DNA from: a virus | DNA length: 37,547 nucleotides | IMG/VR virus record: IMGVR_UViG_3300048838_000376 | Coordinates: 1-37,547 of that record | Direction: 5' to 3' (one strand) | Shown: piece after piece, positions 4,417 through 35,986 of the stretch | Numbering within the stretch: the stretch's first letter is position 1 | How the letters are laid out: every line of letters begins with the position of its first letter | Program-made: the position numbers and the translations under genes | The notes under the pieces: model-generated | Database searches by the model: none | What the model was told of the DNA's origin: nothing | The model's input: the letters and a program-made list of their open reading frames with translations, nothing else

Positions 4417-4651
4417 GCCTGGGCAGGGGTTCTTCGTACCCTGCATTGCCGTGGCCAAAGTGCGCGAGCTGGGGCTCAAAGCCGCTCTCCAGCACCGGAT
4501 AAGGGCAGAGGGGCGCCCCGCGATCGTACGGGGCGCCTACGGCGTCTGGTTTACCCGCCTGCCCGAGCCGCGACGTCGCGGATCTGTCGAGCCAGCTGCA
4601 GCTCCACCTGCCGGATCTGATCCACCTGGGTCCGCTTCTCCTGGGGCGTGA
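4385..4651 (+). CDS. Small protein at the convergent junction (88 aa)
   Basis: The gene overlaps the end of the primase-helicase by 32 bases. The first 57 residues (RLEPGQGFFVPCIAVAKVRE..., ending WFTRLP) look like a compact phage protein. The last 30 residues are Pro/Ala-rich and are encoded opposite the final 100 bases of the giant minus-strand gene, so that tail is probably just run-on. A GGAG lies upstream of the ATG at 4385. The hairpin at 4512-4537 is inside it. No function is assigned, and it could be a chance frame. Confidence 0.5.
   Translation: MKMTWPWTRLEPGQGFFVPCIAVAKVRELGLKAALQHRIRAEGRPAIVRGAYGVWFTRLPEPRRRGSVEPAAAPPAGSDPPGSASPGA
4512..4537. terminator. Symmetrical hairpin between convergent transcripts
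   Basis: A perfect 9-bp inverted repeat (GGCGCCCCG / CGGGGCGCC) with an 8-base loop lies 14 bases beyond the stop of the giant minus-strand gene and about 95 bases beyond the primase-helicase stop. Its position is that of a bidirectional terminator. Neither strand has a T-run after it, so it may act as an RNA 3'-end barrier or need Rho; it also lies within the 88-aa frame. Confidence 0.4.
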
Positions 4652-7600: not shown

Positions 7601-10600
7601 CGTTTCGAGCAGGGCGGTACACGCCCTCCGCACGACGGCCGTCAACACGCAGCATTTCCTGATTGCGCAGCTTGGGGACACGCCCCTTGGACAGCACTTC
7701 TCGCAGCTTGGTAGCTACTTGGCGCATGAAAGGCGTGGAGCCGTTGGCGGCTAGGTCGCTCAAGACATCCAGCGGGCGTCCGTCCAGCACGGCATCCGCC
7801 GCTTCTTCACTGAGGAAGTGTGTTTCGCGGTCGGAGTAGAAGCTGGCGTCCTCTCGAAGCAGCGCGTCCGTGCCGGCGTCGCCTTCAAAGTCGAGTTCGC
7901 CCATCTCGTCGATGGCGTTCTGTGTTTTGGTCTTAGGCCCACGAGTCTTCTCGTTGGCCGCGTTGTCTGCCTGGGCTTTCAAGATGGTCTGCGCCACAGT
8001 CTTGGCGTCTTCGACCTGTTTGGTGCGTTTTGGGCGCGGAGTCTTCTTCAGCTTCTCTGCCGCAGCATTGGCGCGCTTGGCGTCCTCTCGCATTTGCGCA
8101 GCGTCAGCGTTGGCCGACTGCTGCTCGGCACGGCTGATAGGTGTGTCCCGCTCCCGAAGGCGCTGAGATTCCTCGATGCGCTGTCGTTGCGCTCCTGCGC
8201 GCTCTGCGACCGTCTCGGCGTTGCCTGTGCGGAAGCCGCCGGTCTGACGGGTCACGCGGGTGGCCGGGCTGCTGGTGCGACGCTTGGTCTGCCTTTCGGT
8301 CAGCTGCTCATCTGCTGCACTGATGGGTTTTTCAAGTGCTTCGCGCTGTGCACGAATGTCATCGCGCTGAGCCTGTGTCAACGGCTGGGGCCCTTGCTTC
8401 AGCGCTTCTTTCCTTTCAGCGACGAGCGCGCGTTTGGAAGTAGTACCAACGATCGCTTCGCGGCGGATACCCCAGGCCTTGGAGATTTTCTGCCCCTGCT
8501 TGTCGATCTGGTTGCGCAGACGAGCCACAAGCTCCTGTGCTTTGGCCCGGGCGGGGGTGTCGACTTCTGAGGCGTCGTAGCGTTCCTGCGCGCGCTGCAG
8601 CATCTCGATGCGCTTGCGCTGCGCAGCCAGCTTGCCTTCGACGTTTTCCAGGCGTGCCTGTGCCTTCTTTTCCAGCGCCGTGGTGCGTGCAGCATACTCT
8701 GCCGCGGCCTCTTCGAATACAGCGCGTTGCTCTTCATTCATCGGGACGCGTGCCAGGATGTCTTCCAGCGCGGCCATGCGCGTGCTGGCCTCGTCCAGTT
8801 TCTCTTGGTCCAGGCGGCGTGGCTCGAAGGACACGCTCTCACGGGTGGTGCCCGGGGCGTTCTGTCGTGTCTCCAGCGTTTGCTGCTCTGCCTTGCGGCG
8901 CTCGCCATCCCGCTCTTCGCGATCGAGCTGCGTTTCCTTCTCGCCGGTGGGGGCCACGCCGCGCTTGGCATCACGGATACGCTCCGCTGCTTGGCGGCGC
9001 AGGCTCTTCACGGGCCCTGCTTCAGCCTCGACTTGGCTGTTGATCGCCTCCAACTCGCCGTCGGTGGCACGGATGGCTGCAAGGGAGTCGGCGCGTCGGG
9101 ACTTGGCCAGCGCCATCATTTCGTCTGCACGCGCCTTGCGGTCGCGCTGCGCCTGGAACTCTGGATCGGTCTCGAGCTGCGTAAGCGCTGCGTCAAGCTG
9201 CGCCTGGGCCCGGTTACGTGCGGCCTTGAACCCGCCGATGCGGCGAGACTGCTGGAGACGCTGTTTGGAAAGCTCGGCGGCGCGCTTCTGGAACTCGGCC
9301 AGGGCCTTACCGTCGGTCACCGCTTGATCCAGCCCCGGCACGTGCGCCGCGCGCGCTTGCACGCTGGCGGTGAGCAGCTCCTGCTCCAAGTCAGCCACCT
9401 TCTTCTCCAGGCGGTTGAACTCGGCCAGCTTGGGGCGGCTGATGGGGTCTGTGGAACTGAACAGCGTTGGGGTGTAGCTGGCCAGCTTCTGCTTGGCGTC
9501 CGCCAGTTCACGGGACAACCCGATCAGTTTGGTCTGTGCTTTGCGCAGCGCGGTCAGCTCACGCCCTTGCATCCGCTCGGCCTGATTCAGGTTCTGCAGG
9601 TTCTGGGCGATCTGCTCTGCGATCTGCGCGTCAGCATCGTAAGCGGCCTGCAGCTTCTGCTCCGCCTCGGCCAGCGCCTCGGTGTACTCGATGGTGGCGA
9701 AGTCCAACACATCCTGGGCTTCCATCACCGCTGCGGCTGCGGCGTCCATGTCTTTGCGAGAGGCTGCGTCCTCGGTGCTGCGCTCCTCAGCCCACGCAGC
9801 TTTCTGCGCTACCAGCTTCTGGACCTTGCCCTCCAGCTCGGCCACACGCTTCTGCAGCGGGGCCACCATCTTGACCGCGCGCGACAGCGTCTCGTTGATC
9901 TGCCCATTGGCCGTCTTGAGCACCACCAGTGCGTCGCTGGCCATCCAGTCGTCGAACTCGACCCAGTTGTTGAACAGGGTACCCCGGTCGTTGAACAGCT
10001 CGCTTTGCACGGCCGTCTTGCCGCCCTCAGTCTCTGAGCGCTTGCCCTGCTCCATGAGCGCCAGCTCGTCATTCAGCGCTTGTTGCTGCTCGGCAATGTC
10101 TTGCCCGCGCTGCGCGCGCATGGCGGCCTGCACGGCGTTGTCCACCAGGGTCGGGGTCTTGACCTTGGAGTCGATGACCTGCTGCACCAGCGGCTCGGCC
10201 GGCGTGCCTTGGGCCTGGGCCTGGGCTGTGGCCAGCCGGTCTTCGTTGCTGCGGTTGCTGTCCGTGCGGTCGGTGCCCGGGGCGCTCTCTTGCGTACCGG
10301 CGCGGCGGTTGCGAATCTGGTCCAGACCTTCAAGAATGCTCTGCGCCGCGGCGTAGCGGTTGCTGAACGTGCGCTCCCCGGGGTTGCGGGTTTCCTGGTT
10401 CTCCAGGCCCATACCCGTGGGGCCGGCGCCAGGGCCGGGCAGGTCTTTTCGGAACTCGCCGCTGCGGCGCTGCACGGGCTCCATCTCAGGGTTTTTACGG
10501 GTGCCTGTGTTGACCTCTTCCCGCGTGTCGCCGAAGCGGTTCTTCAGGTCGGCCAGCAGGTCGCGCGCCTGGGCCATGACTGTCTGGCGCTCGGCAACAC

Positions 10601-12728
10601 TCAGCGGCTGCCCGGTGATGCCCTCGATCTCGCGCACGAGGTTGTCGACCACGCCCTGCTCGGCCTGTTTCAGCGCACCGGCATCGGCAAGGCCGCGGTT
10701 GAACCGGTCCAGGGTGGAGACCATCTGGCCGAAAGAGCGCACTCGGGCGTCGGTGAAGGACTGGCGGCGCGCGGCATCTTCGGGCACCTTCATGCCCGCA
10801 GCTTGCTCCAGATCACGGCTGCGGATGTCCGCCCCTTGCGGACCTGCTTTGGCCTGGGTGTCCCGGTCGCGATTCTCGTTGCGCAGCGCGCGCAACTCCT
10901 CGACGATTTCCTTCTGGCGGCTCTTGTCCTGGCTGGCACGGGCAATGGCCAGATCCGCCATGATTTCTGCCTCGCTGCGCGCTGGAGCGCCCAGGCCGCT
11001 GCCTACACGGTCTTGCCCTTCCGGCTCACCAAACAGGCGTGGCTGCTGCGTTGCGTCGGCCGTACCTGCTGCCGCTTTGGACAGGTTATCCAGCTCGTAG
11101 TTGAAGTTGCCCTCTTCCCGGGCCGCATCCCCTTGCTCCATGGCGTCGCGCAGGCGCTGGATCTCGGCGTCGACGTTCGCAGAAGGGCGCTGCTGCTTGA
11201 GCAGGGCTTCACGATCGGCCAGTTCGGCCCGGTTTAGCTGGTCAAAGGCACGGGTGTTGTTGCCTTCGATGTCGAGCTGTCGCGTGCGGCCCAGGTCCAG
11301 CGTTCCCTGCACGCCGCCCATGGCGTCAATTTGCTGGGCGATCTGCAGCGCTTTGGCGGTGTCGCCGTTGTTGTCCGCCTTCTCCAGCTGCTTCTGGAGC
11401 GACGCCAGCTTCTTTGCAGCGGCAGCTGGGTCTTCAATGTTGAGCGACTTGAGCTCTTCCTCGGCCAACTTCTTGGCTTGGCGAAGCTGTTCCATCTGGC
11501 GTTCGCGCTCGGTGCGCTCGGCCAGCGTGGCACCGCCCAGGTTCTGCTGCCGGATGTCGTCCATGCGGGCATTGATCTGGGGGATGGTGTTGCGCAGGAA
11601 GCCCGCGCGCTGCACGGGGTCCTCTTGGGGTGCAGGCGCAGGGGCGGCGTTGGGCGTATTCTCCATGCCCGGCAGCGATGCCTGGGGCATGAGAGGCCCT
11701 GTTTCTTCAGCGGCGAGTCCCCCGGCCGACGGCGCGTTGCGCTCGGCCTCGATAAATGACTGCTCCTGTGCTTGCTGCGCGGCCAGTGCCTCGGCGCGCT
11801 TCTTCTTTTCCTCGTCCTCGGCCATCTTCAGGCTCTGGCGCTTCTCCGAGCCGCGCTCCACAAACCGGCCGGCGGGGGACAGCGTGCCTGCCAGCAGGGC
11901 GCCGCCGAAGAAACTCTGGATGTACTCGCCACGTGCCTCGGGGGAGACGGTGGAGATGCCCGCCTGCGCGCGCTCGAGCACCTGCTGCATGGTCTCGGTG
12001 AGGCCCTCGACCGTCATGGCTTGGCCGGTTTTCTTGGCGTACTCGGTAGCGATCTGCTTGGCCGTCTGCTGCGCCATTTGCTTGGCGGTCTCTGAAGTCA
12101 CCTTCTGGCCGGCGGCGCCGAACAGCTTGCCGATGCCGGGGATGAAACGGAAGCCCACCACGTCCAGGGCGGCCTGGGGGATGGCCGCGGCCAGCGCTTT
12201 ACCCCCGCTGGTGTTCTCCAGGGAGGTTTGGTTTTCCTCCATGCTGCGGTCGAGGTTGGTGCCGACGAACTGGCCCAACGATGCGAGACCGGCAGCGCCG
12301 GCGCCAACGGCTGCAGGTGCGCCCAGGGCGGCAGCGCCACCAGCGGCTACCAGCGGAGCGAGCATGTAGGGCGCAGAGCCCCCGGCCAGCTCCTTGATGT
12401 TCTGGAGCGGGGACTCGATGAAGGAGTCCTCGGTCGGCTTGAAGATCTGCTGCGAGCGCTGTTGCTGCTGCGCGTTGTACGCCTCGGCAGCCTTGAGGTC
12501 CATCAGCCCGGCCTTGCCCGCCGTGAGAGCGGCCTGCCCCTTCAGGTTTTCCAGACCCCCCTTGAACGCAGCGGTGAAGCCGCCTTGGGGCTGTTGCAGC
12601 CCGACGCGCTTGTAGAAGTCAGCCGGGTCGATGTCCGCGTAGAACTTTTTTCTCAGCCCTTCTACCAGCTCCGTATCACTCAGGTCTTCATACTGGGGAT
12701 ACTGTTGGCGAATTTGCTGGATGTTCAT
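4551..12728 (-). CDS. Giant internal virion/ejection protein with HELAH metallopeptidase motif (2725 aa)
   Basis: The N-terminus (QQYPQYEDLSDTELVEGL..., then DPADFYKRVG) is a recurring opening of large phage internal proteins. Residues about 115-165 are an Ala/Gly-rich hydrophobic stretch that could insert in a membrane. Residues about 280-1600 are mostly Glu/Gln/Ala/Arg-rich and predicted coiled coil. HELAH at 1725-1729, inside EEVLVHELAHAATL, is a zinc metallopeptidase motif. Beyond about residue 1850 there is a polyvalent-protein type region, and around 2215-2420 a segment resembling the large polyvalent protein domains (LPD38-like, ITRAPAYAIRQIIREPINAF). It is last in the late operon, after other internal proteins, as expected for proteins ejected with the DNA. 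The ATG is six bases after the previous gene. Ejection and cell-envelope penetration are inferred from family and position. Confidence 0.85.
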   Translation of the reverse strand: MNIQQIRQQYPQYEDLSDTELVEGLRKKFYADIDPADFYKRVGLQQPQGGFTAAFKGGLENLKGQAALTAGKAGLMDLKAAEAYNAQQQQRSQQIFKPTEDSFIESPLQNIKELAGGSAPYMLAPLVAAGGAAALGAPAAVGAGAAGLASLGQFVGTNLDRSMEENQTSLENTSGGKALAAAIPQAALDVVGFRFIPGIGKLFGAAGQKVTSETAKQMAQQTAKQIATEYAKKTGQAMTVEGLTETMQQVLERAQAGISTVSPEARGEYIQSFFGGALLAGTLSPAGRFVERGSEKRQSLKMAEDEEKKKRAEALAAQQAQEQSFIEAERNAPSAGGLAAEETGPLMPQASLPGMENTPNAAPAPAPQEDPVQRAGFLRNTIPQINARMDDIRQQNLGGATLAERTERERQMEQLRQAKKLAEEELKSLNIEDPAAAAKKLASLQKQLEKADNNGDTAKALQIAQQIDAMGGVQGTLDLGRTRQLDIEGNNTRAFDQLNRAELADREALLKQQRPSANVDAEIQRLRDAMEQGDAAREEGNFNYELDNLSKAAAGTADATQQPRLFGEPEGQDRVGSGLGAPARSEAEIMADLAIARASQDKSRQKEIVEELRALRNENRDRDTQAKAGPQGADIRSRDLEQAAGMKVPEDAARRQSFTDARVRSFGQMVSTLDRFNRGLADAGALKQAEQGVVDNLVREIEGITGQPLSVAERQTVMAQARDLLADLKNRFGDTREEVNTGTRKNPEMEPVQRRSGEFRKDLPGPGAGPTGMGLENQETRNPGERTFSNRYAAAQSILEGLDQIRNRRAGTQESAPGTDRTDSNRSNEDRLATAQAQAQGTPAEPLVQQVIDSKVKTPTLVDNAVQAAMRAQRGQDIAEQQQALNDELALMEQGKRSETEGGKTAVQSELFNDRGTLFNNWVEFDDWMASDALVVLKTANGQINETLSRAVKMVAPLQKRVAELEGKVQKLVAQKAAWAEERSTEDAASRKDMDAAAAAVMEAQDVLDFATIEYTEALAEAEQKLQAAYDADAQIAEQIAQNLQNLNQAERMQGRELTALRKAQTKLIGLSRELADAKQKLASYTPTLFSSTDPISRPKLAEFNRLEKKVADLEQELLTASVQARAAHVPGLDQAVTDGKALAEFQKRAAELSKQRLQQSRRIGGFKAARNRAQAQLDAALTQLETDPEFQAQRDRKARADEMMALAKSRRADSLAAIRATDGELEAINSQVEAEAGPVKSLRRQAAERIRDAKRGVAPTGEKETQLDREERDGERRKAEQQTLETRQNAPGTTRESVSFEPRRLDQEKLDEASTRMAALEDILARVPMNEEQRAVFEEAAAEYAARTTALEKKAQARLENVEGKLAAQRKRIEMLQRAQERYDASEVDTPARAKAQELVARLRNQIDKQGQKISKAWGIRREAIVGTTSKRALVAERKEALKQGPQPLTQAQRDDIRAQREALEKPISAADEQLTERQTKRRTSSPATRVTRQTGGFRTGNAETVAERAGAQRQRIEESQRLRERDTPISRAEQQSANADAAQMREDAKRANAAAEKLKKTPRPKRTKQVEDAKTVAQTILKAQADNAANEKTRGPKTKTQNAIDEMGELDFEGDAGTDALLREDASFYSDRETHFLSEEAADAVLDGRPLDVLSDLAANGSTPFMRQVATKLREVLSKGRVPKLRNQEMLRVDGRRAEGVYRPARNEIVIDDFAMTEEVLVHELAHAATLRAIAGDLPLDASQQKALADLQALYETMKRDPGFENEYARKDLAEFVSELLSNQNVRDKIDAAQGRGFLDKLYDGLLRLLGIRASDKAVEDAFKLFAPARPFNYQMQAVPSIMRGVFPDRAPQYAADIPESVREQTEKTVGRDPTLADKIMANVAGFRAQFLDRFDPYEKLMRMGVDKGLISDVQAFQYSYFMRMGEQRNQYVEQAVTQGVPQLRKVDGDFVIETAEGEHANLKKIAEALSKSNVGNEAATERLFTQYLAVLRGEKVGFDKLNYDEPITPAMARDIKDTVNANPERKAAFESARKLYREYNDNLLDLLTDLGAMNKSTASALKQGDYVPYYRQDANGVVNLIIAGETPVRVGNIKDQPYLAELVGGNDKILPFFSGAMQNTSMLVDMALRNKQAMEISNLVKELGLGNIRSGAGTADNRNTVTFKIDGEPVHLVIDGAVDTWGVPADLLVKSLEGIKTTIPAALRLMQMPANLLRTMITRAPAYAIRQIIREPINAFLVTGGNFTPVVSSVKELLEIQSGTSTATKSLERSGAISSNVITGDKQDQARILRDLAQGKTAWQKAMMKLDNFAMEGDTATRAVLYDKFRKQGMTHMQATLGALESMNFSRRGLSPTMQMMSMLVPFFNAQIQGMDVIYRAATGKTTFEQKLDVQRKLIARGTMMAAGTLAYAAMMQDDEAYKNATPVERASNWFLPLPGMDEPLRVPIPFELGFAFKALPEVAFNTAFGDTKAADAAEAVRTLVFQSIPIGMPQAIKPLVEVASNYSFFTGQNVEGQRERLVNKEERFRDNTSELSKLLSRVPGVDTAATVATLGAVKELSPVQLDYLIRGYTGGMGLALIKLTDNVWKMANPSEGLADPATKKASQLPLLGALFQPVDGRGVIDEAYKDMEEWNQASQTYKRMLEQGRRADALKFAQENAQKMALSSVGGDFRQHMGELAKLRRGILASKTLTPQEKRTQVDQIRQVELQLARQIRDVAARAGG

Positions 12729-25355: not shown

Positions 25356-25643
25356 TCAAGATACGGGGGGATCAGGTAAAGGTGCAGGTGCAGGTGCAGG
25401 CAAGCGAGACGCGGTCAGTGCTGGGTCGGGACGTGGGCTGCGCAGTGCTTGCGGGTCGTCGACAGGAGTGCTGCCAAGCCAGTTCTGTGGGTGGTCGGGG
25501 TCGTGGCAGCTGGGGCACGCCTTGACGCCTGTAGGGCGGCCGCGAACAAAGTTTTCCCGCAGCTCGGCTAGCTGATAGCGGAACCCGCACACATCACAGA
25601 ACCCGTGCGCGCGCTTGCCGGAGGCGAAACGCGGGCCGCTCAC
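25356..25643 (-). CDS. Zinc-ribbon phage protein (95 aa)
   Basis: GTG start overlapping the previous stop (GTGA). RFASGKRAHGFCDVCGFRYQ and ACPSCHDPDHPQ provide two C-x2-C pairs that would bind one zinc. The C-terminal third is a Pro/Ala-rich tail. Proteins with the opening GPRFASGK and two Cys pairs are frequent next to podovirus neck genes. The role is unknown. Confidence 0.75.
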   Translation of the reverse strand: MSGPRFASGKRAHGFCDVCGFRYQLAELRENFVRGRPTGVKACPSCHDPDHPQNWLGSTPVDDPQALRSPRPDPALTASRLPAPAPAPLPDPPVS

Positions 25644-26320
25644 ACGTACCCCTGGTACGGCACCAGCCGCAAAGAAGCCTTCTCACGGTCCTCGTCCATG
25701 GCCATCTGCATGGTCTCGTCGTATACCGCCTTAAGCGCGCCCATGCGTTCCATACCCCCGGGCAACTTCATGCTGAGGTAGTAGGCCAGCCCGGCCACCA
25801 TGGCGGGCAGGAAGCGGAAGGGAAGGTCCTGTGTGTTGACCCCGCTGCCGGAGTCCTGGATGCGCCGCAGGCGCCAGTAGACGAAGGTGTATGGCACGCT
25901 GGTGTCGGGGACAGGCCAGAACGTCACCTGGGGCGTGATCGATCGCTGCACGAACATCTGCAGGGGGCGCCCCGACACCGTCTTGTTCGGGATCGACTGG
26001 TACGTCGGCATCGCAATGCGCGAGATGACCAGATCCGTCTGCGTAACGCCCGCACCGGTGCGAATGACCGCATCCATGATGTCGACGCTGTCTTCAGGCA
26101 AGGCGTACGCCGCGGTGCCGGGCACCAGCGAGATCGACTGCTGCTCGAAAGTCCACATGTTCAAGCCGCGGTTGGCCCAGTCCGCGAACAGCAGGTTCAG
26201 GCTGCGCCGCGCCGTCTTGAAGTCATACCCCGTACGCAGCTCGTAGCCACACCGCTCCGCCGCCTCTTCGAGGATCTCGGAGAGGTCGAGGTTGAATGCG
26301 GAGGTTCCAGAGGTGGCCAT
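25640..26320 (-). CDS. Tail tubular/adaptor-like protein (226 aa)
   Basis: The N-terminus (NLDLSEILEEAAERCGYELR) and TARRSLNLLFADWANRGLNMW, followed by VPGTAAYALPEDSVDIMDAV, are hallmarks of phage gp11/gp4-type adaptor proteins that form the head-tail connector. QVTFWPVPDTSVPYTFVYWR and the helical C-terminus also fit. Paired with the related protein at 24536-25165, these would give two rings of the podovirus tail. Confidence 0.85.
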   Translation of the reverse strand: MATSGTSAFNLDLSEILEEAAERCGYELRTGYDFKTARRSLNLLFADWANRGLNMWTFEQQSISLVPGTAAYALPEDSVDIMDAVIRTGAGVTQTDLVISRIAMPTYQSIPNKTVSGRPLQMFVQRSITPQVTFWPVPDTSVPYTFVYWRLRRIQDSGSGVNTQDLPFRFLPAMVAGLAYYLSMKLPGGMERMGALKAVYDETMQMAMDEDREKASLRLVPYQGYV

Positions 26321-26458: not shown

Positions 26459-29400
26459 CTATAAACCGATTTGTATTCCGATGGACATCCGGCTCGAGCT
26501 TCCTTGCCCGGCAGCAGGCGGGGCTGTCGTTGTGAACTGCCCCGATGATACGACGGTTGAGGTATTTCCGGCAGCGTCCACCTGCACGAAGTGATGGTAG
26601 TAGGCTGTCTCCGCCGTCAACCCCGGTGTGTATACGTTCTGCACACCGGCGGCCACCACGCTCTGCGACAGCCCTGCTTGCACTGTCGCCTCTAGCTCGA
26701 CCGCATTGATCGTCGTGACCCAGTACAGCGTGCCGTTGGCTTCATCCGTAGTGATCGTGCCGGCCCCTGCAGCGGAGCCCACCGCAACCCCCGTAGGGGC
26801 GCTAAGAATAGGGGCGGTCTCGTCCGGAGGATCCGTCTGCGTGATAGAAGGCGCAAACACCACCGCCGCACTACTCAGCAAAGGGATTGTGAGCATTTGA
26901 TTTCCAGGAGGCCCTTGTGTTATCGAAGGCGCAAACGGGCTTGCCGCGCTGTCGAGCAGGGGGAATGTAAGCGACACCCCTCCAATAGTTATCCCCGGGG
27001 CGAGAAGAACCGCTGCGCTGTCGAGCAGGGGGAATGTAAGCGACACCGCCCCCGTAGTGATCCCCGGCACAAACAGGGCCGCACTGTTGTCCAGCAGCGG
27101 AAGTGATACCGCCTGGGTACCCGGGGCGATCTGCACCACTGTAGGCGCGAACAGCAGGGCACTGTTGTCGAGCAGTGGAGGTGTGAGCGCCACTGCGCCC
27201 GTGGTGACTGCGGGGGCGAACAGGGCCGCACTGTTGTCGAGCAGTGGAGGTGTGAGCGTTAGCGCGCCCGTACTGTCTGCGCCGGTATCGAACGCTCTTG
27301 CATCAAAGGCCCCGTCATCAAATGCGAATTCTTCCGCACCCCCTGTGTCGAACGCTCCTGCGTCAAAAACCGCGTCCTCAAAAGCAAACTCTTCTGTGCC
27401 CGCGAGGTTGCTAACTGCAGGCGCGAACAGTACCGCTGCGCTGTCGAGAAGCGGGGGTGTGACCGGCACCGAACCCGTGGTGACTGCTGGTGCGAACAGG
27501 ACTGCCGTGCTGTCGAGCAACGGAGGCGTTAGCACCAGTGCCCCGCCACCAGCGTCAGGCGTGTAAATCTGCCACGGGTTTGCAGCAAGATCGGCAATCT
27601 CGGTAGCCGTCTTGGCCGTCGAGTAAGCCTGGGCAGAAAGAATCTTCGCCCCGATGGTGCTTTGATCCCCGTTGCCGATCTTGTTGAAGAACTCAACCCG
27701 GTCAAACTCAAGGGCGTTACCCAGGGAGCCGTTCGCGCTGGTGCTTATCAGAAAGCCGTCGAGGTATTGTCTGACATCAGCCCCGATGGTGATGGCGTAG
27801 TGGTAAAGGACATCTGGCCCAGGTGCTGCGGTCCCTGATTCACGGTCTGCCGCATAAGGGCGGGCATCAACACCAAGGTTGCTGGTAGAGAAAATGCGGT
27901 TTGCAAGGTGGATGCGGTTCGCACTGGATGTGCCAACAATGCCAAATGCGACCTCATACGCATTGGCTGGCGTCGGAGAACTGAACGCCATCGCCAGCGT
28001 CCACTCGCTGGATGTGACTGGAGCGGCGAGGTTGGTTAGGGCGTTTGCGTCCGAATAGTCGGTGGTGGTCGCGCTCGCAGCGATGCCTTCCGCAATTGTC
28101 AGCGGCGTGGTGTTGCGAGCAACGCCGGTCCCGTAGGTGTCCGCACCACTGAATGCGAAGAACAGCCCCGCGGCCAGCGGGTTGCCTGTGTCGATGGGCG
28201 TGTCAGGTGGCGGCTGGATCGTCCACGGCGTGCCGCCTGCCGGTTGACTGACTGCTGGCGCGAACAGTACCGCTGCGCTGTCGAGAAGCGGGGGTGTGAC
28301 CGGCACCGAACCCGTGGTGACTGCTGGTGCGAACAGGACTGCCGTGCTGTCGAGCAACGGAGGCGTGAGCGATGTGGAAGCAGCAGTGACTGTCAGCGCA
28401 GCAGGATTGCTGGTGACGGACCCTGCGGTGTTGGTATCGGTGAAGCGGTACTGATTGCCGTTGTCAATCAGCGCCAGCGCAGGCGTGGTGTAGTTGGTCC
28501 CGGTTGCGCCTGGAATCGCTGTCCACGTCGCCCCACCGACTTCTGATGCCTGCCAATCGTCGCCCGTGTTGAAAAATCCGTAACCGCCCGGCTGTCCTGT
28601 GGCATAAGTCGCGTCGGTCACGCTGCCCACCACTACGCCGTTTTGAGTCAGGCCGATGGTCGAACCAATCGCCCGCAAACCTATACGGTCACCGGAAACC
28701 AGCGTCAGACCCGTAATGTTTGCAAGGCCAGTCAGCGACCCGCCGCCATTGCTCCGATAAATCTGAACGAATACGGCTTCGGTTTCGTTGGTACAGATAT
28801 AGCCAGACCCGTCTGCCTGAATCCGCACACCGCCGCCGCAGTGCGTGTCGCCAGGATTCCCAATAACAAAAGAGGCTTCTTGATCTGCCGCAAATGTTTG
28901 GCCTTCGTACCTCACAACCGTGTTAGCCGATCCGAACGAGATGGCGTTTGAAGAGATTGAAGCCGAACCTATCGGGGTCGTCCAGTTGGCTCCAAGCGGG
29001 CCATCGGCTCGGTTGAAGTCGTCTGATGCAGTGACTGGCGGCGCTCCTGTGCCCAAAACCTGCCATTGACGGGCGGCAACCGGGTCGCCGTTCGGTGCGC
29101 TGGCCGTAAACGTGGCTGTAGCACCTACTGCCGCGCTTTGATCCGTTGGCTGGGTGCCGATGGTAGGCGCTACGGGGACAAACCCCTCGCGGATGCGCAG
29201 GAAGCCCGCAACACCAGAAGCCGATGCGCTGAGAGTGGCCGAATAGGTCGGGGCGGATGTACCGCTTCCCGTCATCGTTGCAGTCTCGACAACGTGCCTA
29301 TGATCGTTTCCGCTCGTAACAGCCGCGCTGGCACGGTTTGTTCTTGTGAACGTCAGTCCAGACGCCGTGAGTGACTGAGCCGAGTGCGTGGCGCTGTCTA

Positions 29401-29875
29401 CGTCGGTTGCAATCGCGTACAGCAGCAGATCGCCTGCCGCCATGTCAATGGCAGAAGAGCCAGTAACCGAAAACGTGGTAGCACGGGTGGTGTCTGCGCC
29501 CGTGCTGAATTCAAGCTCAAGCGCAGCGAATGCAGCTGACTCCACGCGGACGATGGACGCCCGCATGGTGTTGGCCGTGGTCCCGGCCAGACTGACGGCG
29601 ACGGTGCCGCTCTCAGCCCCTGTTACCGTATCCTTTTTGAAGACCGTGACGCGCCGTGTGCCAGTGTCAACAGCCCAGGAGCCAGTCCCTCCGACGAACG
29701 TGAACACCTGCGTCCAGCCCGCTGGCATGGTCGGGATGTTGCCCTCGGTATCCGACCGCCCGGTGATGACGCAGAACAGGTGGCTCGTGCTGGCGCTGAT
29801 CCCCGTCGGATACGAAGGCGCAGCGGTGGTGGTGCCGTTTGCGCCTGTCCCTATCGAGCCGTATGAGATCGCCAC
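26459..29875 (-). CDS. Modular tail fibre/receptor-binding protein (1138 aa)
   Basis: GTG start with AGGGA upstream, ten bases after the DUF1501 stop. Residues 1-233 are an N-terminal fibre domain. An Ig-like domain (about 234-273 and 449-500) is split by a lectin-like domain (274-448, beginning near DDFNRADGPLGANW). Next come two units of a 20-residue repeat (TPPLLDSTAVLFAPAVTTGS type), a LamG-type jelly-roll (about 550-775, ending TATEIADLAANPWQIY), two more units identical to the first two, two copies of a FAFDDGAFDARAFDTG motif, and six further repeat units. A fibronectin-like C-terminal part follows. The arrangement is that of a host-binding fibre; receptor binding is inferred. The PLL-x-FAP repeats are known from phage tail proteins. 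Confidence 0.85.
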   Translation of the reverse strand: MAISYGSIGTGANGTTTAAPSYPTGISASTSHLFCVITGRSDTEGNIPTMPAGWTQVFTFVGGTGSWAVDTGTRRVTVFKKDTVTGAESGTVAVSLAGTTANTMRASIVRVESAAFAALELEFSTGADTTRATTFSVTGSSAIDMAAGDLLLYAIATDVDSATHSAQSLTASGLTFTRTNRASAAVTSGNDHRHVVETATMTGSGTSAPTYSATLSASASGVAGFLRIREGFVPVAPTIGTQPTDQSAAVGATATFTASAPNGDPVAARQWQVLGTGAPPVTASDDFNRADGPLGANWTTPIGSASISSNAISFGSANTVVRYEGQTFAADQEASFVIGNPGDTHCGGGVRIQADGSGYICTNETEAVFVQIYRSNGGGSLTGLANITGLTLVSGDRIGLRAIGSTIGLTQNGVVVGSVTDATYATGQPGGYGFFNTGDDWQASEVGGATWTAIPGATGTNYTTPALALIDNGNQYRFTDTNTAGSVTSNPAALTVTAASTSLTPPLLDSTAVLFAPAVTTGSVPVTPPLLDSAAVLFAPAVSQPAGGTPWTIQPPPDTPIDTGNPLAAGLFFAFSGADTYGTGVARNTTPLTIAEGIAASATTTDYSDANALTNLAAPVTSSEWTLAMAFSSPTPANAYEVAFGIVGTSSANRIHLANRIFSTSNLGVDARPYAADRESGTAAPGPDVLYHYAITIGADVRQYLDGFLISTSANGSLGNALEFDRVEFFNKIGNGDQSTIGAKILSAQAYSTAKTATEIADLAANPWQIYTPDAGGGALVLTPPLLDSTAVLFAPAVTTGSVPVTPPLLDSAAVLFAPAVSNLAGTEEFAFEDAVFDAGAFDTGGAEEFAFDDGAFDARAFDTGADSTGALTLTPPLLDNSAALFAPAVTTGAVALTPPLLDNSALLFAPTVVQIAPGTQAVSLPLLDNSAALFVPGITTGAVSLTFPLLDSAAVLLAPGITIGGVSLTFPLLDSAASPFAPSITQGPPGNQMLTIPLLSSAAVVFAPSITQTDPPDETAPILSAPTGVAVGSAAGAGTITTDEANGTLYWVTTINAVELEATVQAGLSQSVVAAGVQNVYTPGLTAETAYYHHFVQVDAAGNTSTVVSSGQFTTTAPPAAGQGSSSRMSIGIQIGL
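26850..27265 (-). repeat. Array of degenerate 20-residue repeats in the tail fibre
   Basis: Six consecutive copies of the LTPPLLDNSAALFAPAVTTG-like unit, spaced about 60-75 bases, are encoded here; four more copies lie upstream in the same gene. At DNA level, stretches such as ctgtcgagcagggggaatgt and ttgtcgagcagtggaggtgt each occur twice. The array probably grew by unequal recombination. Confidence 0.75.
27288..27401 (-). repeat. Two tandem 60-base units (Phe/Asp/Ala motif)
   Basis: Two diverged in-frame copies at a 60-base period encode EEFAFEDAVFDAGAFDTG and EEFAFDDGAFDARAFDTG. This acidic, Phe-rich motif interrupts the PLL-x-FAP array and differs from it. Confidence 0.7.
27420..27529. 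repeat. 110-bp perfect direct repeat, copy 1
   Basis: Identical over 110 bases to 28257-28366; the offset is 837 bases (279 codons), so the two copies are in frame. The copy encodes two PLL-x-FAP repeat units. The DNA between the copies encodes the LamG-type domain. Confidence 0.95.
28257..28366. repeat. 110-bp perfect direct repeat, copy 2
   Basis: Partner of 27420-27529, same orientation, no mismatches over 110 bases. One mismatch followed by five more matching bases extends the similarity at the low-coordinate edge. Confidence 0.95.
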
Positions 29876-29884
29876 GGGCTTCCC

Positions 29885-31267
29885 TTACGCCATGATCCCA
29901 AGATCGCGGCTTGGAAAGTTTGGTAGCAACGGGAAAAGCAGGTTCATCGGGTTGACCCCGTTGGACACCGCATCCGGCACACCCATCCACTTCATCATGG
30001 TCGCGCCGAACTCGCTCACAGCAATGCCTGGAATCAGTCGGCCCTCTCCACCATCCCAGGGGCCGCCCAGCGTGATCGTAGGGTAGGTGTTTAGGATCGG
30101 GCCAGCCTTGGCGTCTCGGTTGTATAGCCTGCCGCCATTGACCGCGCCACCAATGACGAAGTGGTTACTGCCCCAACCGTGATCTGTCCCCCCGCTGTTA
30201 GGCAGCAGGGCGCGACCAAAATCGCTGGCAGTGAACAACGTCACGTTGTTGGTAACGCCTTGCGTCACCATTTCAGCCTGGAAGGCCGTTATTGCATCGT
30301 TGAGCTGCTGCAGAAGAGCGGTGTTCACCGACACATAGGGCGCCGAGTGCGTGTCGTAGCCGCCCATTTGGACGTAGAACATCTGGCGCCGATGCTGCGA
30401 GGCTCCACGCCCAGCGATCATGCGAGCCACCGAGGCAAGCTGGTTGCCAATGCTTGTGTCTGGGAAAGTTGCAGTCACTGCCGCAACATTGGATGCCGCG
30501 CTGGCAGCTTCCGTGTATTGGACCGTGTTGTTCTGCACGAAGTTGATGGACTGCTCAATCTTGTTGGCCCGACCCTGTGCGATCCAATTCAGCCGCCCGA
30601 GGTCAAGCACTGAGTTTGCCGTCGCGGCTTGAGGGGTTCCAGTGATGCTTGAGAAGTCAGGCGAGACTGATCCCGCGATAGAGCCCGTGATCTGAAATGG
30701 GTTCTGCTCGTAAGACTCCAGCATCCTTGAACGGCCTGCGATGGACAGCAGCGAGGAATAGGTGGCAGTTGGGTTGAATGCAGCGTTCAACAGGTCCGCA
30801 CCTCGACCAAACCAGCCGGTTGCCTCGCCTTGAAAGTCGCCGCGATCCGTTTGCCAAATGTCTTGCTGATCGTTGTGGCTGTAGAGTTGGTATGGCTTTG
30901 CACCTGGGCCAGAGCCAAATGTGCCGAAGTCGGTCTTGTTCAGCGGCTCGATCATCGGGCCGATGTTGCACACAATCGCAGCATCGCCTGCGTTGTAGAG
31001 CGCTTGGATGCCTGGAAGAGAGGGGTGAAGCCCGCAACCTGAGGTTCCCGTCAGCGGCAAGATGCTGGCGAGGGCCGGGGCAAGAGCAGAAGAGCGGTCA
31101 GATTGGAACTGCGCATACTGCGCACCAAGCGGCGGCACTGCGTTGACGCCATCCATGCCGCCGACCAAGTACACACAGATCAGCGCCTTGTAGTCCGTGC
31201 CGCCGCCCAGCGCGGCCTGGGCCGCCATGGCTGGCTGCGCGTCTACGAATCCGGTTGGTAATGGCAT
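29885..31267 (-). CDS. DUF1501 family protein in the virion operon (460 aa)
   Basis: YKALICVYLVGGMDGVNAV (25-43), GGYDTHS (D305, H307), TASDFGR (D349), GTDHGWGSNH (D362, H363, H369) and IGGAVNGGRLY are the conserved blocks of DUF1501, a family I place in the alkaline-phosphatase/sulfatase superfamily, where such Asp and His residues bind metals. All are intact, so the protein may be an active metallohydrolase; substrate unknown. Bacterial members usually carry a twin-arginine signal peptide and sit beside a DUF1800 gene. Here the N-terminus is only a short Ala-rich leader without RR, and the DUF1800 gene lies eight bases upstream. The gene is followed ten bases later by the tail fibre. A virion-associated or host-surface-directed enzyme is my inference. 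Confidence 0.9.
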   Translation of the reverse strand: MPLPTGFVDAQPAMAAQAALGGGTDYKALICVYLVGGMDGVNAVPPLGAQYAQFQSDRSSALAPALASILPLTGTSGCGLHPSLPGIQALYNAGDAAIVCNIGPMIEPLNKTDFGTFGSGPGAKPYQLYSHNDQQDIWQTDRGDFQGEATGWFGRGADLLNAAFNPTATYSSLLSIAGRSRMLESYEQNPFQITGSIAGSVSPDFSSITGTPQAATANSVLDLGRLNWIAQGRANKIEQSINFVQNNTVQYTEAASAASNVAAVTATFPDTSIGNQLASVARMIAGRGASQHRRQMFYVQMGGYDTHSAPYVSVNTALLQQLNDAITAFQAEMVTQGVTNNVTLFTASDFGRALLPNSGGTDHGWGSNHFVIGGAVNGGRLYNRDAKAGPILNTYPTITLGGPWDGGEGRLIPGIAVSEFGATMMKWMGVPDAVSNGVNPMNLLFPLLPNFPSRDLGIMA

Positions 31268-31275
31268 GTCGGTCC

Positions 31276-32931
31276 TTATTTTTGAGCGAGCGCTTGCGGG
31301 TGTGTCATCAGGTGACGAACCAAAGCCTCAACCGCTCGGGCACGGGTGAACTCACCTACATCTGACTGCAGGATGGCTACCCGTGAAATGGCGAAGTCCA
31401 GCGTCGCCTGAGAAAGTTGGCCAGCGCAGAACAGCAGATTGATCCGGTCGGCTACCGCTTGGTCATCCGGCAGCGCGATCAATTCTGAGAAGTCCACAGC
31501 AACCTCTTGAGAAGTGTCTTGATCGCCGACCGCCCCACGGGTCAGCGCTCCAGCAATCAGGTTCGTGACTGTTGGCATCACCGTGTCGCCCATGAAGGAC
31601 AACTCAGGAGAGACAAAGCCTTCCAGGCGAAGCAGCGGATCGGCTGCATACTCGTACTGGAAGAAGCCAAACACGCTTGGCGGGGTGACAGGCAGGGTGC
31701 CGCCACCAATCGCCCGCCCTAGCGGGCGATTGATGTTGATGGCCTGTGCCCACGTCCCAAGCGCTCTGCCTGTCCGCGTCGGGTTGTACGGGAACGACGC
31801 GCGAGCAACGTAGGCCCAAGGCTCAACCACCTTGCCCCAATCGCCGTTGTTGAAGCGGTCGCGGCTGCGAGCCTCTTGATCGAGAAGGATGGCTTTCCAC
31901 ATCGCAGACAGGTCGCCGTCGATGCTGTTGTTCCAGGCCGCAACCACCCTCGCCACATAGCCCGGCGACGGATTGCTGGTGGTCATCATCTGGATCATCT
32001 TCTTGCAGATGAACGGGCCGCAAGAAGGGTGTCTTGCAATTCGATCCAGCGCCAGGGACAGGCTGGTCGGCCCGTCCGTGTTGGCCGGGATGGTGATGTT
32101 CAAGAACTCCTTGGGGCCGTCTTCATGAAATGCTGGGATTGACACCAGCGGGGTATTCACCGCACTTCCAAACAGGCCATCCAGTTCCTCGGTGAATGCG
32201 GACCCTGCTCGGTTGGCCGTATTCCAGCCGGTAAACACGCGAGCGAGGCCGCGCACGTCGGCGAGGTTGTACGTTGGCACTTCGTCAGTGCCGCCCTCGA
32301 CATAGCGCGGATCGCCTGGGTCCAGTTCGCCAGACAGCTTGCGGGTGCCGTCCTGCCGAAGCTCCCACAGGCCGATTGAGAACAGCTGCATGATTTCTCG
32401 TGCAAAGTTCTCGTCGGGCTGGCTACCGCCTGCGGCCTTTGGGTTGACCAAGAAGGTCAGCCACTTGGCCATCGAGTAGTTCATCGACGCGCCTTCCAGC
32501 AGATTGCGGAAAGTGCCGAACAGGTGGGGCTCAACTTGACCGAACCAGCCGTAGATGCCGAACACGTTGTCAAGGTGAATCGGGAACAGCTTGACCATGC
32601 AAAAAATGGCCCTGGCACGAAGCGCGTCATTGGTGCCCATGGCTTGTTGAGCACGCCAAAACATGATGCTCGACACCTGCTCGCTTGGGCTGGTTCCCTC
32701 CACGCCGTTCTCTTCTGCCGCGTAAGCCAGTCTTGACCCGATCCAGTCATAGGCTGGCGCGGTGAGCTGGTTGTCGATCCAGGCTTCGTAGGCGTAGCGG
32801 CCCTGAGCCACCACGGAGTTGACCTGTGCCGTGCTGTAGCCCCAGGTTCCGTGCAACAGGATGCCGGCCGCATCGGCCTGGGAGATCGTTGCCGGGTACT
32901 TGCGGCGAACAGCCGCCGCCACCGCGCTCAT
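31276..32931 (-). CDS. DUF1800 family protein in the virion operon (551 aa)
   Basis: The start overlaps the stop of an upstream tail protein gene (ATGA). Diagnostic blocks are LLHGTWGYSTAQV, MVKLFPIHLDN, NYSMAKWLTFLVNPKA, PDENFAREIMQLFSIGLWEL, TYNLADVRGLARVFTGWNTA, ARHPSCGPFICKKMIQMM and PPSVFGFFQYEY, all typical of DUF1800. It is full length for the family, uninterrupted and without a signal peptide. The biochemical role of DUF1800 is not established; it is usually the genetic partner of DUF1501, as here. Sitting inside a phage tail operon is unusual. It could be a chaperone, a carrier or a structural partner for the DUF1501 enzyme. Confidence 0.9.
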   Translation of the reverse strand: MSAVAAAVRRKYPATISQADAAGILLHGTWGYSTAQVNSVVAQGRYAYEAWIDNQLTAPAYDWIGSRLAYAAEENGVEGTSPSEQVSSIMFWRAQQAMGTNDALRARAIFCMVKLFPIHLDNVFGIYGWFGQVEPHLFGTFRNLLEGASMNYSMAKWLTFLVNPKAAGGSQPDENFAREIMQLFSIGLWELRQDGTRKLSGELDPGDPRYVEGGTDEVPTYNLADVRGLARVFTGWNTANRAGSAFTEELDGLFGSAVNTPLVSIPAFHEDGPKEFLNITIPANTDGPTSLSLALDRIARHPSCGPFICKKMIQMMTTSNPSPGYVARVVAAWNNSIDGDLSAMWKAILLDQEARSRDRFNNGDWGKVVEPWAYVARASFPYNPTRTGRALGTWAQAININRPLGRAIGGGTLPVTPPSVFGFFQYEYAADPLLRLEGFVSPELSFMGDTVMPTVTNLIAGALTRGAVGDQDTSQEVAVDFSELIALPDDQAVADRINLLFCAGQLSQATLDFAISRVAILQSDVGEFTRARAVEALVRHLMTHPQALAQK

Positions 32932-33443
32932 GCGACCCTCACGAAGCTGGCCGTCTGCCGCTTGACCTCAAATGCGCTGAACTGATCCAGCGTGGCTGGC
33001 AGCAAAGCATTTCGCGGGATGGCCCCACCGCCGTCGAGCACGATAGACACGGCGCCAGCACCCATATTGGTGCCAAAGAAGCGAGTGCCTGCCGTGGCCG
33101 TTGCGGGGAGGGTCAGCGTGACGGGAGAGGCCGAATTAACCTCAATCTCACGATTGCCGTGCGAGGCTTCGGTCAGAGTCGTGTTGCCCGTGAGGACCAC
33201 AGGGGTCAGCACGCCACCGCCACCGCCACCGCCCGTGGCAGACAGCACGTTTCCAGACAGGTTGAGGCCAGAGCCAATGGCAATCTCTTGCGCTGCCCCT
33301 TGGTCAGCAGCCTCGCGCCCCAACAGGGCTGGGCCTTCCATTTCAAGGTCGTGCGGAGCGTTCCAGTTGGAGGTTCGGACCTTGGCGGCGTTGGTCCCTT
33401 CGGCAGCGGTGCTGACGAACGGGTGTGCAATTTGGATCGTCAT
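32928..33443 (-). CDS. Tail/fibre-associated protein (171 aa)
   Basis: MTIQIAHPFVSTAAEGTNAA, with VRTSNWNAPHDLEM, is a recurring N-terminus of phage tail proteins. A Gly-rich hinge (TGGGGGGGV) separates it from a beta-rich C-terminal part (NREIEVNSASPVTLTLPATA..., SFVRVA). AGGA precedes the ATG. The stop is coupled to the DUF1800 start, which ties that pair to virion gene expression. Confidence 0.8.
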   Translation of the reverse strand: MTIQIAHPFVSTAAEGTNAAKVRTSNWNAPHDLEMEGPALLGREAADQGAAQEIAIGSGLNLSGNVLSATGGGGGGGVLTPVVLTGNTTLTEASHGNREIEVNSASPVTLTLPATATAGTRFFGTNMGAGAVSIVLDGGGAIPRNALLPATLDQFSAFEVKRQTASFVRVA

Positions 33444-34188: not shown

Positions 34189-34398
34189 TCAGCTCAGAGC
34201 TGCGCCGACGGCGGTGACCCAGGCGCTGCCGGTCCAGATGACGATACAGGTCTCGTTGTTGCCTGCGCCGTTGTCCGTGATCAGGCGGGTCTGGCCGGCG
34301 TCATCTGCGGTCAGCGTCGGCAGCGTGGCCGTGGTCAAGGGGGCGTAGGCGAAGCCGTTGTCCGAAGCAACGGGGCCGGAGAAGCGAGTTTGTGCCAT
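34189..34398 (-). CDS. Small virion protein (69 aa)
   Basis: The ATG overlaps the stop of the homing endonuclease by one base (TAATG) and has AAAGGA eight bases upstream. FSGPVASDNGF, followed by Thr/Ala-rich beta structure (TATLPTLTADDAGQTRLITD) and CIVIWTGSAWVTAVG, is a pattern of small phage virion proteins. It was probably the gene next to the capsid gene before the endonuclease was inserted. Confidence 0.75.
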   Translation of the reverse strand: MAQTRFSGPVASDNGFAYAPLTTATLPTLTADDAGQTRLITDNGAGNNETCIVIWTGSAWVTAVGAALS

Positions 34399-34988
34399 TA
34401 CAGTGTTCCTTTGAGGTGTTGATATCTTAACGCCAACCTACGGGTCGAGCTAGTATCGGAGCCAACCCGCCTAGCGCGCTCTGCATAGGACAGGTCTTCA
34501 TTCTCAAGGATAAACTTTAGCTTTGCAATGAATTTCGGGTCCCGGTGATAGCGGGCCATCTGCGCCTCGGACAGCAGCTTTCGGTACTCAGGCGCTGAGT
34601 AGTCAAACGTCGTTGCCCTACGGCCTAAGCGAATACGCTGCCGTACCTCTTCACTATGGACCTTTCCTCGCATCGGAGCTTTGGCAAAATCGGCGATGTT
34701 GTAGACCGTTGGTTCATCAAACCACGCGTCGCCTTTAATAAAGGCTTCCTCCAACCGATCCAGCTCTTCCAGATCGGAACACTCAGCTTCGACCGCACCG
34801 CAGAAATTCTCTGCCCCGTACTTGTTGTAGGCTCGCTGTAGATGTAAGTTGGGGTGTTTGTAAAGTCGCAACAGCCTGAAGTGCTCCTTGATCCGCTTGC
34901 GAACTCGCTGCGACTGCCCAACATAGCACTGCCCTGTCGCTTTGTTCACGAGCTTGTATATCCCGCAGATGTCGACTTTATATGGCAT
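34398..34988 (-). CDS. GIY-YIG homing endonuclease (196 aa)
   Basis: I choose the ATG at 34988 (MPYKVDICGIY), which has AAGGAG 6-7 bases upstream; the longer frame to 35045 runs into the terminator. The GIY-YIG domain shows GIYKLVNKATGQCYVGQS (GIY at 9-11, YVG at 22-24), the basic run RVRKRIKEH, E80 in RLEEAFIKG and N97 in YNIAD, all expected active-site positions. A NUMOD3-type DNA-binding motif (APMRGKVHSEEVRQRI) and a helical C-terminus follow. It is AT-richer than its neighbours, consistent with horizontal transfer. Such enzymes cut DNA to copy themselves into related phages. It lies between the capsid gene and small virion genes, a free-standing insertion. Confidence 0.92.
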   Translation of the reverse strand: MPYKVDICGIYKLVNKATGQCYVGQSQRVRKRIKEHFRLLRLYKHPNLHLQRAYNKYGAENFCGAVEAECSDLEELDRLEEAFIKGDAWFDEPTVYNIADFAKAPMRGKVHSEEVRQRIRLGRRATTFDYSAPEYRKLLSEAQMARYHRDPKFIAKLKFILENEDLSYAERARRVGSDTSSTRRLALRYQHLKGTL

Positions 34989-35017
34989 ACACAACTCCTT
35001 TTTATGTAGTGTATGCC
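34984..35017 (-). promoter_or_regulatory. Translation-blocking hairpin over the endonuclease start
   Basis: A perfect 9-bp stem (GGCATACAC / GTGTATGCC) with a 16-base loop. On the transcribed strand the AAGGAG ribosome binding site lies in the loop and the ATG (34986-34988) in the stem, so a read-through transcript would hide the start codon. Confidence 0.75.
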
Positions 35018-35026
35018 TTTTTCTAG

Positions 35027-35059
35027 AAAAAAAAGAAGGGCCCACCGAAGTGAGCCCTT
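35027..35059 (-). terminator. Intrinsic terminator after the major capsid gene
   Basis: On the minus strand a 10-bp stem (one G-U pair) closes a TTCG tetraloop and is followed by TTCTTTTTTTT. It is the only canonical intrinsic terminator I see in the window, 18 bases after the capsid stop. It would lower expression of the downstream tail genes relative to capsid. Confidence 0.93.
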
Positions 35060-35077: not shown

Positions 35078-35986
35078 TCAGGCGCCGGGGGAGCCGTACA
35101 TGCCCAGCGGGTCGCTCCAGCCGAAGCTGTAACGCTCGCGAGCCTTGTAGCGCATGTTGCCCGTGTCGAAGTCGGTGTCGGAACCGGTCTTCATGGCCAC
35201 GCGCTCGAAGTGCTTCAGGCCGTCAGGCACATCGGTCGACAGGAACCACGCATCCGGATCGGTCAGGTAGTGGTTGATCCGGTAGCCCTGCGGGATGGCC
35301 CCCGTGGACTTCAACGCGTTAATGTCGTTGTCGGCCGTCGCGACGCGCAGCTCGGTCTTCATCAGGCGTTCGATCACGAACTGCAGCTGGGTGGGCACGA
35401 TGGCTTTCATCGGCTTCGCAGCGATCAGCAGGCCCTTCTCGTCGGTCCATTGCGAGATCTGGATCACAGCGTTTTCCAGAGCGGTCTCGTTCAGGTCCGA
35501 AGGGGTGGCCGGCTCGTTGGAGTTCACGCCGCCGCCGATCAGGGGGTGTGCGGTGGAGAACAGCTCGACACCATCGCCGCCGGCGAAGGCAGCGTTGAAG
35601 CCGTTGTTCAGCACTGCAGCAGCCTTGACCTGCTTGGTGTGTGCCATCGAGCGCGCCAGCGCCTTGGTGTAGCGACCCGACAGGGAAGCGTACAGGTTGT
35701 CTTCCATCGCCTCTTCGGTGATGGCGAAACCAAGCACCACGGTCTCGTGCACGTAGCGCGAGGTGAATGCTTCCTGGGCGTTGTCGTAGGCCATTGCGGC
35801 GCCTTCGGTTTTCACCGGGGCAGCGCTGAAGCCGGCCAGCTTGGTTTCCTCTTCGAAGGAGCGATCGCTCGACTCGGTTTCGAAGATTTCCTTGTGCTCC
35901 TCGGCGTACTTCTTGTACTCCAGGCCGAACAGAGCGTTCAGGCCAGGAAGAAGTTCCTTGAGCATTTGTGCGCGGGAGATTGCCAT
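35078..35986 (-). CDS. Major capsid protein (302 aa)
   Basis: AGGAG precedes the ATG strongly. SRAQMLKELLPGLNALFGLE, YVHETVVLGFAITEEAMEDN, RSMAHTKQVKAAAVLNNGFN, FSTAHPLIGGGVNSNEPATP and MKAIVPTQLQFVIERLMKTE are typical of capsid proteins of this size class that adopt the HK97 fold. It is preceded by scaffold- and decoration-like genes and followed by a strong terminator, as expected for the most abundant virion protein. Confidence 0.88.
   Translation of the reverse strand: MAISRAQMLKELLPGLNALFGLEYKKYAEEHKEIFETESSDRSFEEETKLAGFSAAPVKTEGAAMAYDNAQEAFTSRYVHETVVLGFAITEEAMEDNLYASLSGRYTKALARSMAHTKQVKAAAVLNNGFNAAFAGGDGVELFSTAHPLIGGGVNSNEPATPSDLNETALENAVIQISQWTDEKGLLIAAKPMKAIVPTQLQFVIERLMKTELRVATADNDINALKSTGAIPQGYRINHYLTDPDAWFLSTDVPDGLKHFERVAMKTGSDTDFDTGNMRYKARERYSFGWSDPLGMYGSPGA

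Follow-up and report, generated by a model that had tools for sequence, protein, structure and literature searches.

The question raised by this locus is why a phage should hold, between two tail-like genes, an adjacent pair of genes of the DUF1800 and DUF1501 families, which are common in bacteria and to which, to our knowledge, no function has been assigned. The stretch of DNA analyzed here (the window) is an IMG/VR virus record, IMGVR_UViG_3300048838_000376, of 37,547 bases, with end repeats absent.

An intact gene pair among virion genes

The pair lies on the minus strand and is transcribed after a gene for a 171-aa tail-domain protein and before one for a 1138-aa adhesin-like protein, in the following setting:

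35078..35986, minus strand: major capsid protein (PF25209, phrog_371)
32928..33443, minus strand: 171-aa protein with a tail-protein C-terminal beta domain (phrog_8780 C-terminus, E = 2e-6)
31276..32931, minus strand: DUF1800 protein, 551 aa (PF08811, E = 3e-57)
29885..31267, minus strand: DUF1501 protein, 460 aa (PF07394, E = 5e-23)
26459..29875, minus strand: 1138-aa repetitive adhesin/tail-like protein, GTG start (phrog_8501 minor tail protein, E = 1e-6)
25640..26320, minus strand: SU10/Pam1-type head-tail adaptor (PF24175, E = 5e-14)

Other structural neighbors in the window are a phrog_3287 structural protein and an ejection protein. Both open reading frames of the pair are free of internal stops, each being the longest that can be started in its own frame; PF08811 is matched over model positions 6–394 of 419 with 195 bits (Pfam cut-off, 26.1) and PF07394 over positions 2–333 of 390 with 82 bits (cut-off, 27), bearing out a preliminary description of this DNA, in which the pair was taken to be intact and full-length within a phage virion operon. 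The ATGA overlap that it placed at 32928–32931, between the 171-aa tail-domain gene and the DUF1800 gene, is real, and the tight spacing of the DUF1501 and adhesin-like genes stands as well, with a gap that measures 9 bases instead of the 10 given. Within the pair, the spacing is 8 bases, and DUF1501 follows DUF1800 as in bacterial pairs. The PHROG search gave no family for either member of the pair; their neighbors match tail and structural families. In G+C content (60%) and tetranucleotide make-up, the pair does not stand out from the rest of the contig, where 25 of 69 windows of equal size are more deviant.

Several further features of the window deserve mention. The 1138-aa protein (26459–29875, minus strand) contains many repeats of the type LTPPLLDSTAVLFAPAV, partly encoded by 69-bp tandem units. 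A GIY-YIG-type homing endonuclease gene (34398–35045, minus strand), with a G+C content of 51% versus 63%, directly follows the capsid gene, from which it is separated by a strong terminator-like hairpin and T-run (35059–35036, minus strand). A 2725-aa open reading frame (4551–12728, minus strand) has an LPD38 polyvalent-protein domain near its C-terminus, and a 997-aa DUF927 protein is encoded on the opposite strand (1423–4416, plus strand) and is kept in the sister contig 3300049811_000026.

Identity of the phage

The capsid and adaptor genes form the upstream and downstream boundaries, respectively, of a variable interval holding the pair. Across MinM2, DSL-LC04, and CRP-902, identity to the window's capsid protein is 54–72%; it is about 71% for Synechococcus phage MinM2 and Planktothrix phage Pag-Yong1, 61–63% for Pelagibacter phages HTVC023P and HTVC027P and phage DSL-LC04, and 54% for Roseobacter phage CRP-902, while the adaptor is 37–47% identical to those of MinM2, CRP-902, and DSL-LC04. 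Homologues of the capsid and adaptor of these podoviruses (MinM2/Pag-Yong1, HTVC023P, DSL-LC04, and CRP-902) bracket the pair in the window, whereas no DUF1800 or DUF1501 gene was found in the capsid–adaptor intervals examined in phages of the MinM2, HTVC023P, DSL-LC04, and CRP-902 types. In the named relatives, the interval comprises 1 to 2.3 kb of small genes; in HTVC023P it extends to 6.8 kb, with PurM and an M15 peptidase, and in the window to 8.7 kb, the pair included. It is a variable interval in the family to which the window's phage belongs. A genome scan with the ejection protein as query found no host relative.

Two contigs of metagenome 3300049811 are of particular value for comparison. 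One of them (3300049811_000009) carries a capsid gene whose product is 74% identical to that of the window, a 94-aa gene, and then a DUF1800 gene at the contig end; the other (3300049811_000026) starts with DUF1501, followed by an adaptor (56%) and other homologues of window genes, among them the phrog_3287 structural protein (42–48%) and the ejection protein. The two contigs probably belong to a single sister phage, with a join that we infer.

Recurrence in other phages

A search of phage genomes for the pair next to tail genes had been proposed, and profile scans of IMG/VR show that other phages carry it in tail, structural, or packaging contexts: at least about 17 further lineages have the pair (a lower bound, the scans resting on short conserved motifs), with conserved gene order and, in most of them, tail, portal, capsid, or terminase genes alongside. 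DUF1501 comes directly after DUF1800 wherever the contig permits. When the window proteins were used as single sequences to scan IMG/VR, no match came up; the relatives were reached by profile alignments only. The contexts of the pair are as follows:

L017: capsid
L019 and L026: terminase
L012: terminase downstream
L034: collagen-like tail fiber, then the pair, then portal
L024: tail fiber and tail-domain gene
L022 and L029: tail-domain gene, with an internal virion protein downstream
L023, L025, and L027: virion structural proteins
L052/L053: baseplate wedge upstream, terminase downstream
L036 (exception): replication region
L028 (exception): ParB-like genes

The portal among these neighbors matches phrog_156 with E = 1e-145. 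In two outlying lineages, L036 and L028, the pair is outside a recognized tail block; that of L036 (8247–11842) is very divergent and lies between DNA polymerase A and primase-like genes on the opposite strand. A 322-kb virus contig holds two pairs, the signal-less L027 next to a virion structural gene and the Tat-type L021 (5841–11242), which has a DUF1996 protein in front, is near ribonucleotide reductase genes, and groups with Hydrogenophaga in the bacterial clade. This contig has a terminase and looks like a jumbo phage, in which the L021 part is perhaps bacterial.

None of the 50,697 named phage records yielded a phage-type copy. The sole INPHARED match, MT837425 (MT837425.1, 'Bacteriophage sp.', our L002), is a Tat-type DUF1501 gene and was set aside as probable bacterial contamination; the gene annotated as 'DUF1501' in ZC03 (PMC5418858) is a 61-aa weak match and does not belong to the DUF1501 family as found here. 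A phage DUF1800–DUF1501 pair is not described in the literature that we searched for either name. The pair, occurring among virion genes in several unrelated phages, is a real and recurring phage module, and apparently an undescribed one.

Evolution of the module

The trees against bacterial copies that the preliminary description had proposed place most phage copies in a clade of their own. One clade (SH-aLRT 99) unites 13 phage DUF1800 proteins, among them that of the window, and one (support 84) unites 12 phage DUF1501 proteins, in trees that are quick searches on divergent proteins; L025, L028, L034, and L036 do not belong to these clades, and three of the four have long branches. A single origin of the phage copies is likely on these trees. 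A comparison of 14 phages shows DUF1800 and DUF1501 distances to be correlated (Mantel r = 0.86, p = 1e-4). The nearest copies in cells show just 33–40% identity, which, together with the separate clade of most phage copies, leaves a recent capture from a bacterium unsupported. The earlier suggestion that the phage captured the pair as one unit stands in so far as the two genes are held as a unit in the late operon, but not as a recent capture by the window's phage itself, the clade being old and moving between phages.

The pair of the 3300049811 phage is only 27–29% identical to that of the window and falls in other subclades, from which we conclude that the module has been replaced between phages while the capsid was kept. 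Taken together, the single clade, the co-variation of the two proteins, and the combination of 74% identical capsids with pairs of 27–29% identity indicate that the pair is an old, swappable phage module, with most copies in one clade. Module swapping is known for host-recognition genes, and the exchange pattern of the phage pair resembles theirs.

Export signals and fusions

The phage and bacterial forms differ at their N-termini. The Tat motif is present on DUF1501 in all 71 bacterial genes collected next to DUF1800 and in none of 16 phage copies (the window and 15 others), and a lipobox is present on DUF1800 in 29 of 44 bacterial rows, a minimum because the bacterial ORF starts are uncurated, versus none of 17 phage rows. 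The DUF1800 N-termini are less hydrophobic in the phage copies than in the bacterial ones (p = 3e-6), and in the window itself there is neither a signal peptide or lipobox on DUF1800 nor a Tat signal on DUF1501. The exported bacterial pairs, such as that found with chitin synthase (PMC5122149), have in common with the phage forms the two Pfam families, the gene order, the adjacency, and the conserved DUF1501 residues. However, the bacterial pairs have Tat and mostly lipobox signals and reside on chromosomes or plasmids, whereas the phage forms are without either signal, show tail-type fusions and insertions, and for the most part belong to the separate clade.

As for the fusions, the DUF1501 protein of L012 has a tail protein fused at its end (phrog_5939, E = 7e-17), the DUF1800 protein of L031 has cadherin/Ig and DUF4082 domains at its front, and that of L053 gives a weak match to a baseplate-fiber connector; large inserted segments occur in several phage copies, and the pair of the window is without fusion. 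In five lineages (the window, L022, L024, L027, and L029), DUF1800 has a homologous small gene with a tail domain directly next to it or overlapping it. The same five group together as a subclade in the DUF1800 tree (support 92), and within this subclade, that of the window, the cassette has the 171-aa-type gene as a conserved third member.

Predicted structures and putative active site

The AlphaFold model of the DUF1800 protein (pLDDT 66.5, pTM 0.72) is mostly helical. PDB sequence and structure searches found no solved relative; in BFVD it matches UniProt A0A6J5M749 (E = 2e-15, TM 0.70), a protein of an uncultured Caudovirales phage that bears the name 'DUF1800 family protein' by automatic assignment and shares the fold over most of the window's DUF1800.

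For the DUF1501 model (pLDDT 71.7, pTM 0.79), the best PDB matches by Foldseek are LtaS, YejM, and sulfatases, with weak scores (E about 4e-4, TM about 0.33); all the top matches belong to the alkaline-phosphatase superfamily, and a PDB sequence search detected no match to a solved member of it. The possible likeness to that superfamily (LtaS, YejM/PbgA, MCR-type transferases, and sulfatases) may extend to the conserved, metal-site-like Asp and His residues of DUF1501, whose ligand role is putative; Ser130 is a candidate nucleophile. The putative metal-site residues are Asp39, His131, Asp305/His307, Asp349, Asn357, and Asp362/His363, which are conserved in bacterial copies too. His131, Asp305, His307, Arg352, Asn357, Asp362, His363, and Trp365 are invariant in 16 phage copies otherwise about 30% identical, suggesting selection on the putative metal site; Asp39 is kept in 14 of the 16 and is Cys in two. 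Ser130, at the start of a helix, is present in the window and invariant in 44 bacterial rows, but is Ala or Asn in 5 of 16 phage rows.

Proposed function and alternatives

At the sequence level, the findings comprise an intact pair, its structural context, its recurrence, the loss of export signals, fusions in relatives, conserved residues, co-inheritance, and exchange between phages. The functional reading of the pair is, overall, moderately supported; the roles suggested in the preliminary description, on the virion, on a polysaccharide, phosphate, or sulfate group, or in fiber maturation, are conjectural. We consider it somewhat probable that the two proteins form a metalloenzyme of the alkaline-phosphatase superfamily that is borne on the tail and acts on host-surface polymers, its virion location, activity, and substrate all being presumed. 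In the more specific version, a DUF1800 docking partner and a DUF1501 hydrolase or transferase make up an undescribed class of virion-borne enzyme, which is exchanged among phages with short and with contractile tails and which, at adsorption, alters phosphate or sulfate esters on polymers of the host surface; this is a tentative proposal that we give slightly under an even chance.

In the predicted mechanism, the domesticated pair would be produced along with the structural proteins and would most likely become part of the tail or the host-recognition apparatus. DUF1800, which is mainly helical, would provide the docking onto tail proteins, a division of labor that we infer from the attachment or adhesive domains gained by its N-terminus in other phages and from the small tail-domain gene directly ahead of it in the window's subclade. 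DUF1501, as a metal-dependent hydrolase of the alkaline-phosphatase superfamily, would be held at the DUF1800 docking site. Once the phage meets a cell, DUF1501 would act on a polymer of the envelope, taking off or transferring ester groups such as phosphate or sulfate, and would thereby let the phage bind its receptor or gain access to it.

Phage tail depolymerases and tailspike enzymes act on surface polymers. The role proposed for the pair is alike in that it would be a tail-region enzyme, exchanged between phages, with a surface polymer as its target; the pair differs from them in fold and genes, having no beta-helix tailspike and consisting of two separate proteins. In the literature searched, we found no paper on phage tail sulfatases or on virion proteins of the alkaline-phosphatase superfamily.

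Of the alternatives, the one that survives best is that the pair is part of the virion without being catalytic and contributes to tail structure or to receptor binding, the metal-bound DUF1501 fold serving as a scaffold or lectin-like binder. The structural context and fusions, the large inserted segments, and the replacement of the candidate serine in 5 of 16 phage copies would all suit such a role, which we nevertheless judge unlikely, since conservation in DUF1501, otherwise about 30% identical, is highest at the active-site-like residues. An intracellular late function outside the particle, for example that of an assembly factor or of an enzyme modifying tail fibers or a host metabolite, is improbable: the tail and adhesin domain fusions and an exchange pattern typical of host-recognition genes speak against it, even though the loss of export signals would fit any cytoplasmic role, the pair is located in a late operon, and a metabolic gene, PurM, occupies the same interval in HTVC023P of the same family. 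There is still less to commend an auxiliary pair freed at lysis to work as a free enzyme on debris or neighboring cells; the Tat-type, Hydrogenophaga-like pair on the 322-kb contig implies that phages may carry exported copies, and the L036 pair lies between replication genes, but the exported L021 copy is in the bacterial clade, outside which the signal-less window copy falls. Finally, an assembly chimera or bacterial contamination, the former named in the preliminary description as a threat to the pair, is scarcely credible and a chimera at the pair borders is rejected: the two families are bacterial and IMG/VR contigs metagenomic, but both flanks come from one phage family, the base composition matches, an independent phage (the two 3300049811 contigs) has the same neighbors, and the copies are signal-less members of a phage-specific clade.

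Returning to the tail-borne enzyme, the loss of export signals in the phage form and the retention of an enzyme-like active site suggest an enzyme of a new kind, which phage particles would carry to attack the host surface. The findings point to a type of tail-associated enzyme that neither PHROGs nor the searched set of named phage records contains and that would hence be overlooked in current phage annotation. Moreover, the occurrence of a signal-less phage form in structural modules makes the function of DUF1800 and DUF1501 directly testable, through purified particles, host range, and receptor chemistry.
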